In this document: positions 18,013 to 52,766 of the stretch, piece after piece | How the letters are laid out: every line of letters starts with the position of its first letter | Position numbering within the stretch: the stretch's first letter is position 1 | DNA from: Blepharisma japonicum | Lineage: Eukaryota; Ciliophora; Heterotrichea; Heterotrichida; Blepharismidae | Assembly (NCBI GenBank): GCA_949751835.1 | Contig: CATKHK010000050.1 | Coordinates: 1-64,000, forward strand | Length of the DNA stretch: 64,000 bases | Reading direction: 5' to 3' | The notes under the pieces: model-generated | The model's input: the letters and a program-made list of their open reading frames with translations, nothing else | What the model was told of the DNA's origin: nothing | Databases searched by the model: none | Program-made: the position numbers and the translations under genes

Positions 18013-19395
18013 TTAAATTGTTTTGATTTTTTTGCATTTCTTTTCTTTCATATCAAATTCATATAAATCATAACCAAGAAAACCAAAATAAACTTTATTT
18101 TGCCATGAAAATTTGCATCCAATTAGTTCACTGTTATTAATGCCTGATCTTCCTATATTACTTCAGACATTCCATTCAAGATTTCCTTCATAAATATATC
18201 CACCTGCTTCGATTACATAAGCATTTTTATCATTTCCACAGACAATTTTTCTTCACATTCCTAATTGCGTATTATGCAATTCAATGCAACTATTTTGAAT
18301 AATATTATAGCAATAAATCTTTGAGTGATCCCTGCCAGATAATAAAATTTTATTCTCTTTTGAAGAGCTTAAGTAAATATTCTAAGTTGCTGTATTATTT
18401 TTAGCCATGCACGATACAAATGTGGATGGGGCTGGCAAAGGATTTAAGATTTCTCATTTTTTTCCTAATAAATTGTATCTAAATGCATTTCTTTCATACA
18501 CACCTAGAGTCCCTGCATATCCTCCAAAAATATACACACTGTTTTCATAATAAATAGAGCCCGAAAGCCCTAAACAAAATGGAGCATTAGTTATATGCTT
18601 TACATTATTATTCGATTCAATAATAAAGGCAGCATATGCAGGAGTTGGATAATTTCCATAGCAAAAAATTGAGTTTCCAGGAATGAAGCACATTGTTATA
18701 TAATGGCTTTTTGGACTATCCAAAGAGATATTGAATTCAGTTGATGAGTAATTATTTAGATCCGTTTGCACAATTTTTGTGGTATTATCACGAAAAAAAA
18801 TAAATCTATTAGGCACTTTTTTTCTTAATTTTCCTACATCATCTATAAAGTAGTTTGACTTATCAAAAATATCAAAATTGTCTCTAAGCCGCTTGATTGC
18901 TTCTTCTGATTCTGAAGTTAGTATTTTATCTATTTTAGTCTTGCTGGTATTTGATATGACTTCTGTTATCTTTATTTTAGAAATTATTTTACGCTGCATT
19001 TTTATAAATTCGTCGAATGATTTCAATGTAATTTTCATTTTCTCATCAATTTGTTTAATTTGCATTGAAAAATCTAAAAAAGTTTTTCTCCTTAACTCAT
19101 ACAAATCTGATAGCGTCTTGCTAATAATTAAATACTGTATCTTTGGCTGATAGGATTTTTTCTTTGGTCAATTTTATTATGGGATTATCTAAACTAGCGA
19201 TTTGTAAAGGCAATCAATAAGAGCTCTTTTTGTTTCAGGATTTGGCGAAATTGTTAAGGGATCTGGAATATGCTTAGATTTAGATCCAGTTTTCATATGA
19301 GCTGCAATATGTTTATCACATGAATAAACAGGAGGATTTGTACATGGGCAAGCAAATTCCAATTTATTTTCGCAGTGGTCTTTTCAGCATTTCAT
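18013..19395 (-). CDS. Kelch-like copy interrupted by two TA-flanked insertions
   Basis: ATG 19395 (MKCWKDHCENKLEF) and TAA 18013 are both in place, but the genomic frame is interrupted twice. An 84-bp insertion lies at 19111-19194, in the K-S-L-S-D-L motif, and a 42-bp insertion at 18351-18392, in the A-K-N-N-K-I-L-L motif. Both carry in-frame TAG or TAA. Removing them exactly at their direct repeats leaves 1257 bases, that is 418 aa, the normal family length, with no other defect. So the gene is either intact after removal of the insertions or a recent pseudogene. Its zinc module is complete. Confidence 0.75.
18351..18392. mobile_element. 42-bp IES-like insertion flanked by TATT
   Basis: TATT at 18351-18354 is repeated at 18393-18396. 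Deleting one unit plus the intervening DNA rejoins the gene with the same bases seen in its siblings. Read in the host frame (minus strand) it contains TAG. The ends are not GT...AG, so it is not a usual intron. No terminal inverted repeat is visible, though an internal CTCTT/AAGAG palindrome exists. Confidence 0.6.
19111..19194. mobile_element. 84-bp IES-like insertion flanked by TAGCG
   Basis: TAGCG at 19111-19115 is repeated at 19195-19199. Excision between the repeats restores the Lys-Ser-Leu-Ser-Asp codons found in every sibling. Inside, the minus strand has in-frame TAG and two TAA codons. A precise GT...AG intron cannot give the family sequence, and it is far longer than the 15-16-nt introns seen here. 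No clear terminal inverted repeats. Confidence 0.7.
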
Positions 19396-37923: not shown

Positions 37924-39537
37924 ATGTCAGGAGTGAAAATCATTTTACTTATGATCTTTTGCTATACTGGGGTTAATGGTGGCTACTTGTACCCTGAACA
38001 AATTCACATTTCTTGAACAGAAAATTCCAATGAAATGAGAATTACTTGAGTTACTTATTTAGAAAGCCAACCAATAGCAGCATATTCCCCAATTGTAAAT
38101 AAAGGCTCATCAGAAGATTGAAATTTTGTAGTAGGAGAAACTAAGCCATTTCTTGAAAGTAATATAGATGATACAATAAAACTACCCTATTTTGGCATAT
38201 TCGGTATCGTCCCTGTGATTATTTACTTCTTTTTATGATTTCATTATAATTTAGCAATGCTTTTTTGAACGTTTATTATTTCAGCAATTTATACTCATTT
38301 AATTCCCTCAGAAAATAAAATCGCGGAAGAGTTTATTTATATTTTTAACGAAGGATTATACGGGATAGACTTTTATGGGATATTAAATATTGTCATAGAT
38401 GCCACAATTTCTGGAGAATTGAATTTTGGCTTAGGAGAGAGATACCAATATGTCCATACAGCTGTGCTTTATGATTTATCCCCTGACTGCTGATATGAAT
38501 ATAAAGTAGGTAATTTTGGGTTTTGAAGCAAAAAATATGTATTTTATGGCAGAACCCCTATTTATGAAAATGAGTTTGAAGATGTCGATGACCCATATTC
38601 TATGATTATATTTGGAGATTTAGGGACTGGCCCAATTGCTCAGCCTACAAAAGAGCTTCTAGAGAAAGAAGCCTTAGAGAGAAACTCCTTGGGGATTTTT
38701 CACTTAGGAGATATTGCTTATAATTTAGATAAAAAGAATGGGAAAATTGGAGATGAATATTTAAATATGATCGAACCAATAGCAGCATCATTGCCTTATA
38801 TGACAGTTCCTGGAAATCATGAAAAATTTTATAATTATACTCAATATAAATCCAGATTTTATATGCCAATCAATAGCAAAAATCAGGGAACTGGGTATTT
38901 CTATTCTTTAAATTTAGGTCCAATTCATTTTATTTTTCACAACACTAATCTTTATTTTGATGAAAGCACTAAAATTGAAGCTGACATCCAGTTAAAATGG
39001 CTTGTAAATGATTTACATAAGGCAAATAAAAATAGAAAGAAAAGACCTTGAATAATTGTATTATCCCACCATCCTCTTTATTGCTCTCAGAATTGATTTG
39101 AAGAAGGCAGTCAAGAAGATTGCGGAAGTGAGCCTGCTGTCTTAAAACCAATTCTTGAGGATTTATTTTATAGTAACAGTGTAGATTTATTGATTCAAGC
39201 CCATGTTCACAACTATGAGAGAGATGCTGCAATTTATAAAAATAAAACAATTCCTAGCGAATTTGATAATCATCATTGGCACGTTAATCCGAAAGCTCCA
39301 ATTTATATTGTGAGTGGGAATGGTGGGAATCATTATGGAAGAAATGACCCGAAATCTGCAACTCCACAACCATGGTCAAGATTTTTAAGTGATGATTATG
39401 GGTTTGGAAGATTAAAGGCAATCAATAATACTCATTTGTATTGGGAACAGATTAGCGCTGTGACAAATAAAGAAATTGATTACGTTTGGATTGTTAAAAA
39501 GCATACTAGATATGATCCAAGCTTGTTGGAGTATTAA
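37924..39537 (+). CDS. Purple acid phosphatase with an 89-codon insertion
   Basis: 537 codons read through when TGA is Trp. Signal peptide (VKIILLMIFCYTGVNG), a fibronectin-like N-terminal domain, then a metallophosphatase domain with the five metal motifs: F-G-D-L-G, H-L-G-D-I-A-Y, P-G-N-H-E, L-S-H-H-P, Q-A-H-V-H-N-Y-E-R. Homologous to the tandem pair at 49742 and 51429. Nine Trp codons are TGA, two of them inside the inserted segment at 38165-38431, which adds 89 hydrophobic residues between E-S-N-I and G-E-R-Y-Q-Y. Without it the protein would be 448 aa, as its paralogues. Probably secreted or lysosomal. Confidence 0.85.
38165..38431. mobile_element. 267-bp TA-flanked in-frame insertion (IES-like)
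   Basis: TA at 38165-38166 and TA at 38432-38433 bound the segment. Joining at TA gives E-S-N-I-G-E-R-Y-Q-Y, aligned with E-S-K-I-G-Y-K-Y-Q-Y of the paralogue at 51429. It is 267 bp (89 codons), free of TAA/TAG in the host frame, with two TGA (Trp), and encodes two likely membrane segments (FGIFGIVPVIIYFFLW, LAMLFWTFIISAIY). Terminal inverted repeats are not evident. It could be a retained internal eliminated sequence or a captured coding segment. Confidence 0.65.
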
Positions 39538-49396: not shown

Positions 49397-49741
49397 ATAA
49401 TTATATTTAGCCTTTAAGTATCCTGAGAAGATATGCCAGATCTCATAAGCCAAAGAAATGGCCAATATTTATTTTTAAGCTATTTAAATCTGTTTCAAAA
49501 TTTGAAAAAGCTTTGATTTCTGTTGAAATTATAATAAATATTTCAGAAATCCATTTCGAAGTAATATTAATATGAAAATGGTGAAAAACTAAAATTTATT
49601 CTCCCCGTCCCTGTACAAAAAGCTTTGATATCTTCATCCTCCAAAAAGATAAATAATTCCAATAATTTTATCTTTTGAAAGCTCATAGGCTAGTTGTGCA
49701 GATATTTATGTCATGAAATTGGCTTAATATATATTTCTGAT
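49397..49741. other. Upstream region of phosphatase, with C-rich box
   Basis: AT-rich apart from a pyrimidine-rich box TTCTCCCCGTCCCTGTAC at about 49599-49616, about 130 bp before the start codon. A similar box lies before the next phosphatase. Confidence 0.35.
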
Positions 49742-51082
49742 ATGCAACTTTTGCTGTTGATTATTGGTTTTGGAACGGCTTTCGCCGGATATGTCCATCC
49801 TGAGCAGATTCATCTTTCTTGGACAGAAGAAATCAACCAAATGAGGGTTACCTGGGTAACTTATCTAGATGTTCCAGCACAAGCTGCTTATAGGCCGATT
49901 TTATGCGGCAATGTTCCGTCACCTTCGAACTTCACCCTTATCAATGGCGAGACCAAGAAATTCCATGAAGGGAGTCACTTTTGGGAATACCAGCACATTC
50001 ATACTGCAGTTTTTGATAACCTTGATTCTAATTGCTGGTATGAATACAAGGTCAAGAATTTGGGAGTTTGGAGCAAAACTTATATATTCAATGGGAGAAC
50101 TCCAGATACGAATGCAACGTTTAGAGACGTGAACAATCCATTTAGCTTGGTGATATTTGGAGACTGGGGAACTGGCCCAAATGGCCAATACACTAAGCAT
50201 TTACTTGGCGAGGAAACATTGACAAGAGACTACTTAGGGATTCTTCATATGGGTGATATTGCATACAATTTAGATAGCGACGATGGTAAAGTTGGAGATA
50301 CTTATCTTAATATGGTTGAGTCTATTGCAGCATCTTATCCTTACATGACTCTTCCTGGCAACCATGAAAAGGCTAGCAACTTCTCTCACTATAAAGCAAG
50401 ATTCAATATGCCAAATAATGGCATAAACCAAGGCACAGGCTATTTCTACTCCTTCAACCTTGGCCCCGCCCATTTCATAATGTACAATACAAACCCATAT
50501 TTCGATAATATGAATACCACAGCCGATGCTGAGCTTGAAACCGAGTGGATTGCTAATGATTTAGCTATTGCCAATAAACAAAGAGATATAAGACCATGGA
50601 TCATTACATTAGCTCATCACCCACTCTATTGCTCTCAAGATTGGTCTAATGAAGACAGTATAGAAGATTGTGGGGAACAGCCAGCTGTTCTTAAGCCAAT
50701 TTTTGAAGATTTATTCTATAATAATAGCGTCGATCTTGCATTACAAGCACATGTTCACATTTATGAAAGAGACGCTCCAATATATAAAAATGAAACAATT
50801 CCAAGTCAGTATGATAGCCAGAATATGCATATAAATCCAAATGCTCCAGTTTACATTGTGGGAGGGGCTGCAGGAAATCGCCTTGGGACGAATGTACCAG
50901 CTTCAAAAACTCCTCAGCCTTGGGCGAGGTTTTTAAGTAATGACTATGGATATGGAAGATTGACTGTGTTTAATAAAACGCATATGCTTTGGGAGCAATT
51001 CAGTGTACTTCAGCTCACTGAGATTGATTATGTTTGGATTATCAAAGACCAGGCAAGATACAAGCCAGTTCTTTTAAACTAA
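49742..51082 (+). CDS. Purple acid phosphatase, tandem copy 1
   Basis: 446 aa from Met at 49742 (MQLLLLIIGFGTAFAGY), preferred over an upstream in-frame ATG at 49694 because it gives a clean signal peptide and the same length as the next paralogue (445 aa). Metal motifs: F-G-D-W-G, H-M-G-D-I-A-Y, P-G-N-H-E, L-A-H-H-P and Q-A-H-V-H-I-Y-E-R. Iron/zinc-type binuclear acid phosphatase, likely secreted or in digestive vacuoles. All 12 Trp codons are TGG, unlike the relative at 37924. The downstream copy starts 346 bp after it. Confidence 0.95.
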   Translation: MQLLLLIIGFGTAFAGYVHPEQIHLSWTEEINQMRVTWVTYLDVPAQAAYRPILCGNVPSPSNFTLINGETKKFHEGSHFWEYQHIHTAVFDNLDSNCWYEYKVKNLGVWSKTYIFNGRTPDTNATFRDVNNPFSLVIFGDWGTGPNGQYTKHLLGEETLTRDYLGILHMGDIAYNLDSDDGKVGDTYLNMVESIAASYPYMTLPGNHEKASNFSHYKARFNMPNNGINQGTGYFYSFNLGPAHFIMYNTNPYFDNMNTTADAELETEWIANDLAIANKQRDIRPWIITLAHHPLYCSQDWSNEDSIEDCGEQPAVLKPIFEDLFYNNSVDLALQAHVHIYERDAPIYKNETIPSQYDSQNMHINPNAPVYIVGGAAGNRLGTNVPASKTPQPWARFLSNDYGYGRLTVFNKTHMLWEQFSVLQLTEIDYVWIIKDQARYKPVLLN

Positions 51083-51428: not shown

Positions 51429-52766
51429 ATGAAACTGGTTTTATTCCTGATTGGTATTGGACTCACTATTGGAGGATATATTTATCCTGAACAAATCCAT
51501 CTATCCTGGACTGAAGAAATAAACCAGGTAAAGGTCACCTGGGTAACTTTCTTAGATCTCCCACCTCAAGCTGCATTCAGACCTATTTTATGTGGGAATG
51601 TCCCATCTCCTTCAAATTTCACTTATATCAAAGGAGAAACCAAGAAGTTCCGCGAAAGCAAAATCGGGTATAAATATCAATATATCCACACGGCAGTCTT
51701 CGGAGACCTTTTACCCACTTGCTGGTATGAATACAAGGTCGGTAATTTTGGCGTCTGGAGCAAGGTTTTTATGTTCAGTGGGAGAACCCCTGATACTGAA
51801 CAGACCTTTGAAACTGTCAATGACCCTTATACTCTAGTTGTTTTTGGCGACTGGGGAACTGGGCCTATTGGACAATATACCAAACATTTACTTGGAGAAG
51901 AGACATTGACTAGAGACTACTTAGGGATCCTTCATATGGGTGATATCGCTTATAACATGGAGGATGAAAATGGTAGGGTTGGAGACACCTATTTAAGAAT
52001 GATTGAGCCTATAGCTGCAACTTATCCTTACATGACAGCTCCAGGCAATCATGACAGTTACGGGAACTTCACCCACTATAAAAACCGATTTAGCATGCCT
52101 AACAATGGAGCCAACGAAGGAACCGGCTATTTCTACTCTTTCAACCTAGGCCCTGCACATTTCATAATGTACAACACTAATTCTTACTTCAAAGAATATA
52201 GAAAAGTGGAGGCTGAAGTGCAAACTCAATGGCTCGCTAATGATTTGGCTGAAGCTAACAAGCAAAGAGATATAAGACCATGGATCATTGTGCTAGCCCA
52301 TCATCCTTTGTATTGTTCTCAGGATTGGTTTGAAGAGGGAAGCCAAGAAGACTGTGGAGAACAACCTGCTGTCCTTAAGCCAATTCTTGAAGATTTGTTC
52401 TATAGCAATAGTGTGGACCTTGCAATGCAAGCCCATGTTCATAACTATGAAAGAGATGCTGCTATATATAAAAACCAAACAATTCCTAGCCAATATGATG
52501 GACAGAATATCCATATAAATCCGAATGCGCCAATTTATATCACAAGTGGGAATGCAGGGAATTACCTTGAGCATAATGACCCAGCTTCAACAACTCCTCA
52601 GCCATGGGCGAGGTTCTTAAGCAATGATTACGGCTATGGAAGATTGACGATCTACAATAATACTCATCTGTATTGGGAACAGTTCAGCGCAACTGCGCTT
52701 ACTGAGATTGATTATCTTTGGATTGTGAAAGATCAGCCAAGATATAAGCCATCTCTTATTAACTAA
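51429..52766 (+). CDS. Purple acid phosphatase, tandem copy 2
   Basis: 445 aa, MKLVLFLIGIGLTIGGY signal peptide, TAA stop. About 80 percent alike to the previous copy. Metal motifs: F-G-D-W-G, H-M-G-D-I-A-Y, P-G-N-H-D, L-A-H-H-P, Q-A-H-V-H-N-Y-E-R. Asparagine sites N-F-T and N-Q-T suggest glycosylation. All 11 Trp codons are TGG. Its N-terminal E-S-K-I-G-Y-K-Y-Q-Y gives the reference for locating the insertion in the paralogue at 37924. Confidence 0.95.
   Translation: MKLVLFLIGIGLTIGGYIYPEQIHLSWTEEINQVKVTWVTFLDLPPQAAFRPILCGNVPSPSNFTYIKGETKKFRESKIGYKYQYIHTAVFGDLLPTCWYEYKVGNFGVWSKVFMFSGRTPDTEQTFETVNDPYTLVVFGDWGTGPIGQYTKHLLGEETLTRDYLGILHMGDIAYNMEDENGRVGDTYLRMIEPIAATYPYMTAPGNHDSYGNFTHYKNRFSMPNNGANEGTGYFYSFNLGPAHFIMYNTNSYFKEYRKVEAEVQTQWLANDLAEANKQRDIRPWIIVLAHHPLYCSQDWFEEGSQEDCGEQPAVLKPILEDLFYSNSVDLAMQAHVHNYERDAAIYKNQTIPSQYDGQNIHINPNAPIYITSGNAGNYLEHNDPASTTPQPWARFLSNDYGYGRLTIYNNTHLYWEQFSATALTEIDYLWIVKDQPRYKPSLIN

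Follow-up and report, generated by a model that had tools for sequence, protein, structure and literature searches.

Introduction

In the parts of the published accounts drawn on here, Blepharisma stoltei reads TGA as tryptophan, carries the telomere repeat CCCTAACA and has introns predominantly 15 and 16 nt long (PMC9942806). The same species is described as having about 40,000 internal eliminated sequences (IESs), about three quarters of them TA-bound and ~70% intragenic, with a median of 255 bp, and in the sections used their length peaks do not include 267, while terminal inverted repeats are common but not universal (PMC9942856). With such statistics, an IES origin of an intragenic insert of this size is not odd beforehand. 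For Paramecium, the available excerpts state that exonic IESs of 3n length without stop codons are under-represented (PMC3464196) and that precise deletion is the sole way in which an exonic IES can be lost (PMC8354472). Among the titles and abstract openings listed in a literature search, none was recognised as a case of an IES turned into coding sequence.

Here we describe an in-frame insertion in a phosphatase gene of Blepharisma japonicum. The window analysed comprises the opening 64,000 nt of contig C50 in an assembly of 45.2 Mb and 224 contigs. The insert is probably a genuine coding insertion, translated within the phosphatase and present in the sole assembled copy of the gene.

Results

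An intact phosphatase gene carries an insertion found in none of its checkable relatives

The host gene is, by its domain content, a purple acid phosphatase with predicted enzyme activity (Table 1). Its intact open reading frame contains three Pfam domains, PF16656, PF00149 and PF14008, and the N-terminal, metallophosphatase and C-terminal matches score 68.6, 60.4 and 48 bits, each above its cut-off, the N-terminal match (PF16656) coming as two stretches. The metal-binding motifs GDxG, GDxxY, GNHE, xHH and HxH are presumably among the residues common to the family copies. The host retains 65 of the 67 residues that are invariant across 16 relatives; the missing two, an Arg and a Cys, lie beside the insert, suggesting that more than one change has taken place in that part of the domain. 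It is directly before the insert, at residues ~55-75 (window ~38086-38148), that the host diverges most strongly and that these two residues were lost. Comparison of the host flanks with the two window paralogues gave dN 0.29 and dS 1.8 for the 51429 gene and dN 0.31 and dS 2.2 for the 49694 gene, corresponding to dN/dS of ~0.14-0.16 in both cases, with dS saturated. The host gene is intact and under constraint. In the family tree it clusters with the C50, C27 and C77 copies with a support of 0.97. Its order relative to the C77 copy lacks support (0.13) and its branch measures 0.39 substitutions per site, so that the insertion could be either ancient or recent.

Table 1. Coordinates of the host gene, its insert, the window paralogues and the candidate features of the insert
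Feature	Position in window	Strand	Description	Basis
Host gene, purple acid phosphatase	37924..39537	+	537 aa, TGA=W, hydrophobic N-terminus	ORF, Pfam
89-codon insertion	38165..38431	+	TAG at both ends, 3' copy starting at 38432	Family alignment
Rival intron-like interval	38159..38434	+	276 nt, GTAATA...CTTAG ends, in phase	
First hydrophobic stretch	38182..38238	+	Residues 87-105	19-residue hydropathy mean 1.98
Second hydrophobic stretch	38251..38307	+	Residues 110-128	19-residue hydropathy mean 1.65
Paralogue without insert	49694..51082	+		ORF, Pfam, alignment
Nearest window paralogue, without insert	51429..52766	+	64% identity over aligned flanks	ORF, Pfam, alignment

A sequence-only reading of this window had proposed that the gene carries 89 extra codons compared with its two window paralogues, that joining at TA restores an exact family fit, and that the segment is a multiple of three and free of TAA and TAG in frame. 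All of this held in our analysis, with one qualification concerning the boundary. The insert is 267 nt long with 28.5% GC and contains no TAA or TAG in the gene frame, whereas the five remaining frames have 3-7 each. Joining at TA leaves a protein of 448 aa (...FLESNIGERYQYVHTAV). When gap placements were compared, the best alignment to the 51429 paralogue put all 89 residues exactly between ESNI and GERYQ, and the 49694 paralogue gave a four-way tie, so that the boundary is sure to within a few codons.

The survey of the family across the assembly yielded at least 26 matched places, of which two are the halves of the host, three are pieces of a single place on C34, and 21 are other copies. 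The insert is absent from all 19 of these copies that cover the site, the 49694 gene among them; the remaining two (L022 and L025) align only downstream of the insertion point and were left out of the count. Within the N-terminal (PF16656) domain the insert occupies a variable loop, directly before a conserved I-H-T strand, and the loop at this point differs in both length and sequence between relatives. The C34 place (C34:35353-36326; L026, L027 and L029) holds a phosphatase copy in three out-of-order pieces and is apparently rearranged or broken.

The insert reads as translated sequence with non-coding-like codon choice

An open frame like that of the insert was obtained in 1.1% of 20,000 dinucleotide shuffles, which contained 4.2 stops on average; the open frame exceeds chance expectation. 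In the gene frame the codon-position periodicity of the insert stands at the 52nd percentile among coding pieces, and it is matched by 1.9-2.4% of non-ORF frames and by 1.4-1.9% of wrong frames. Among the 4698 non-ORF frames, which include some remaining real genes, 73 were both open and periodic; among the 2670 wrong frames there were 8.

The full codon usage of the insert falls below that of 99.6% of 245 in-frame pieces, a comparison confounded by its hydrophobic amino acids. Its synonymous codon use, which is not so confounded, ranks at the 1.5th percentile among 544 coding pieces and resembles that of non-ORF DNA, with a score of -0.027 compared with -0.017 to 0.038 for the host flanks. 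Taken from its letters, the insert reads as a translated segment that would be either non-coding or fast-evolving in origin, and the recruitment of AT-rich non-coding DNA would suit its codon use.

The base rate of such events was estimated in the first part of the contig, where window 1-26000, at the contig start, holds an array of related tandem ORFs, most of them ~418-430 aa long and on the minus strand, with 26-30% GC. Insertions of at least four residues held by at most two members numbered zero among the 10 related ORFs of the 1-26 kb array, the shorter pieces at 18382 and 25453 being excluded from the comparison.

Searches for a source of the insert

The insert is unique by DNA in the assembly, and no second copy was found there by protein either; a single weak protein match on C58 (E 0.14, 28% over 61 aa) was taken as chance. 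No family was found for it in Pfam, NCBIfam or PHROGs, no PDB sequence matched it, and scans of viral_contigs and genome_contigs confirmed no relative. The top hit by local blastn reached 32.6 bits, less than the 35.7 bits averaged by 30 shuffled queries. A donor gene or repeat was rejected as the source on these results.

Two internal arrangements were also considered. An imperfect direct repeat of 29 nt (72%) lies in frame, 300 nt apart, at 38110-38138 in the left flank and at 38410-38438 across the right junction. It was reached by 8% of 200 shuffles when the whole left flank and insert were searched, and by 0 of 200 when the search was limited to 70-80 nt per junction, a span chosen after the repeat had been seen; its match at the protein level was reached by 46% of 500 shuffles. 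A partial tandem duplication is a possible source, but one not relied on here. A hairpin or palindrome in the insert DNA was rejected as well, as 154 of 200 shuffles folded at least as well as the strand itself.

An intron would have to be unusually long

One way in which the gene could yield a product of family length is splicing. An unusual intron of 276 nt (Table 1), spliced always or sometimes, would give soluble and membrane forms of the enzyme. Its ends fit: GTAA and TAG in phase are present by chance in 0.23% (within 6 nt) to 0.51% (within 9 nt) of 5541 random segments, and all five candidate 15-nt introns found in the genome (among them L033 and L034) have GTAA...TAG. The motif test was, however, post hoc. 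The accompanying test of intron length was crude, other lengths such as 36 and 42 nt (6 each) being as frequent as 15 nt, and what persuades us of the 15-nt candidates is their shared motif, not their count. The length of the interval speaks against an intron, as 15-16 nt predominates in the part of the B. stoltei description cited above (PMC9942806), and no clear long intron was found among the 124 kinesin and 23 chaperonin matches of the genome. About 97 of the 124 kinesin rows, counted by hand, cover the whole motor in one frame; about 23-25 begin only at profile positions 19 to 96, where a short first exon past an intron could escape. For chaperonins, 15 of 23 rows cover the family in a single frame free of stops, one covers it with stops and seven are partial. 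Moreover, removal of 267 nt fits 16 of 20 relatives better than removal of the intron does (worse in 3, equal in 1), and an open, periodic frame is also at odds with splicing. We regard an intron as quite improbable.

The assembly appears to be of somatic type, and no excised form was found in it

When TGA is translated as tryptophan, long genes in the window stay open from end to end. A three-unit pattern of the CCCTAACA repeat gave 77 forward and 91 reverse matches in the assembly, compared with 0 for the control, and among the 100 of these 168 matches that were listed it lies, for instance, at the extreme end of C17 and at the starts of C36, C47, C69, C78, C80 and C89. Because long genes are uninterrupted and contigs are telomere-capped, we infer that the assembly is of somatic type. 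The insert is present in this assembly, and no excised form was found in its 45 Mb: a query joined across the insert aligned only in two separate halves, with TAG as their overlap.

The sequence-only reading had suggested that the segment, lying between TA dinucleotides, may be an IES. That TA ends mark an IES found no support here. Among 5541 in-frame coding segments of 267 nt, in-phase TA/TA bounds occur by chance in 7.6% (within 2 nt), 26.5% (within 6 nt) or 45.1% (within 9 nt), and a second in-phase TA pair exists that gives 255 nt. The base composition thus makes TA bounds weak evidence for an IES. The TAG at both ends forms a TA-containing terminal direct repeat that is expected by chance in the same 8-45%; a terminal inverted repeat is absent from the insert ends (6 of 16 matches compared with a control mean of 6.04, and 60% of controls as good); and 267 falls outside the length peaks mentioned above. 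Periodicity in the gene frame, in addition, would not be expected of a segment that is regularly eliminated ahead of expression.

Three routes through an IES can nevertheless be drawn. By capture, a stopless germline element of 3n length would have inserted at an exonic TA, its excision would have ceased and it would now be protein. The TA bounds with their TAG repeat, the non-coding-like synonymous codon use, and a size in the common B. stoltei range, where the sections consulted place most IESs within genes (PMC9942856), agree with this history; the frequency of TA bounds by chance, the lack of an inverted repeat and of any related sequence in the assembly, and an empty-site TA that is not common to relatives (the 51429 gene has ATC GGG) argue against it, and we consider it decidedly unlikely. 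Partial or alternative excision, giving two DNA forms and two proteins, would account for the TA/TA bounds together with the exact family length after joining, and the consulted sections report partly excised elements in the B. stoltei soma (PMC9942856). The assembly has no excised form, though assemblers can hide a minor one, and both the coding periodicity and the reported scarcity of exonic stopless 3n IESs in Paramecium (PMC3464196) run counter to this route, which we think very improbable. Finally, an ordinary IES might have been retained by an assembly artefact through germline reads mixed with somatic ones, and low residual IES retention, with scores up to 0.02, is described for such libraries in the same partial source (PMC9942856). 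Yet the other long genes of the window are uninterrupted, where ~1 IES per kb, as in B. stoltei, would mean dozens in germline DNA, and the insert is stopless and periodic; we give an artefact hardly any credence. Overall, an IES in the process of turning into protein-coding sequence, being exonic, 3n and stopless, and either having escaped excision or still being removed in some copies, seems to us unlikely but worth stating. Two forms produced through DNA excision are unlikely.

Hydrophobic stretches in the insert

Two membrane segments had been suggested inside an otherwise soluble fold, and two hydrophobic stretches are indeed present, with hydropathy peaks of 1.98 and 1.65. Over the aligned portions of 20 relatives the maximum beyond the N-terminus is 1.37. 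A value of 1.6 is, however, also reached by 25% of the non-ORF frames of the same AT-rich DNA. AlphaFold2 predicted three helices for the segment alone, with a mean pLDDT of 68 and ~84 at segment residues 21-50; the first helix spans both stretches unbroken, and as it has no turn between them the model itself gives a hairpin no support. The model of the whole protein was unusable (mean pLDDT 34).

Discussion

Of the readings considered, a constitutive coding insertion is the most likely and is preferred over the IES and intron readings; nothing here shows that the segment is cut out of DNA. In its favour are the open frame, the periodicity, the intact and constrained host, the lack of an assembled excised form, the inserts in kinesins elsewhere in the genome, and the placement in a variable loop. 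Against it stand the non-coding-like synonymous codon use, the lack of a homologue of the insert, the commonness of hydrophobicity in AT-rich DNA and the unbroken predicted helix. If the coding insertion is translated as part of the phosphatase, its two hydrophobic stretches might enter the membrane, perhaps in the shape of a hairpin. As two is an even number of crossings, both phosphatase flanks could then share the same side, lumenal or outer, and the likely effect of an insert dipping into the membrane would be to tether an otherwise secreted enzyme. Judged by sequence, the segment may form a membrane hairpin by which the phosphatase is anchored.

As a plain coding insertion this is a modest case, in which a probably secreted enzyme would have gained a possible membrane anchor within a folded domain. 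If it were IES-derived, it would be evidence that coding sequence can be recruited from DNA normally eliminated from the soma, and an IES giving a phosphatase its membrane segment would be a counter-example to loss by precise deletion only, as that rule is worded in the excerpt at hand (PMC8354472).

Compared with known systems, the host flanks have the domain order of plant-type purple acid phosphatases (PF16656, PF00149, PF14008), and the 51429 paralogue matches PDB 3zk4, 1xzw and 4dhl by sequence. What separates the host from its relatives in the genome is the hydrophobic 89-residue insert in the N-terminal domain, which 0 of 19 checkable copies have. The insert resembles Blepharisma IESs, as far as the sections used describe them (PMC9942856), in its candidate TA-containing direct repeat, intragenic place and similar size, and differs from them in lying in a somatic-type assembly, in frame, stopless, periodic and without an inverted repeat. 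With the tiny GTAA...TAG introns of Blepharisma the interval 38159-38434 shares the end motifs but not the length, 276 nt against 15-16 nt. Among at least 120 kinesin motor matches in the genome, two motors (L042, C63:56051-57350; L043, C17:198181-199540) have in-frame insertions, 47 and 61 residues long, that follow approximately profile position 97. Like the phosphatase insert, these add tens of residues in one open frame within a conserved domain; they abound in Ser, Thr, Pro and Lys and have 40-44% GC, whereas the phosphatase insert is hydrophobic with 28% GC.
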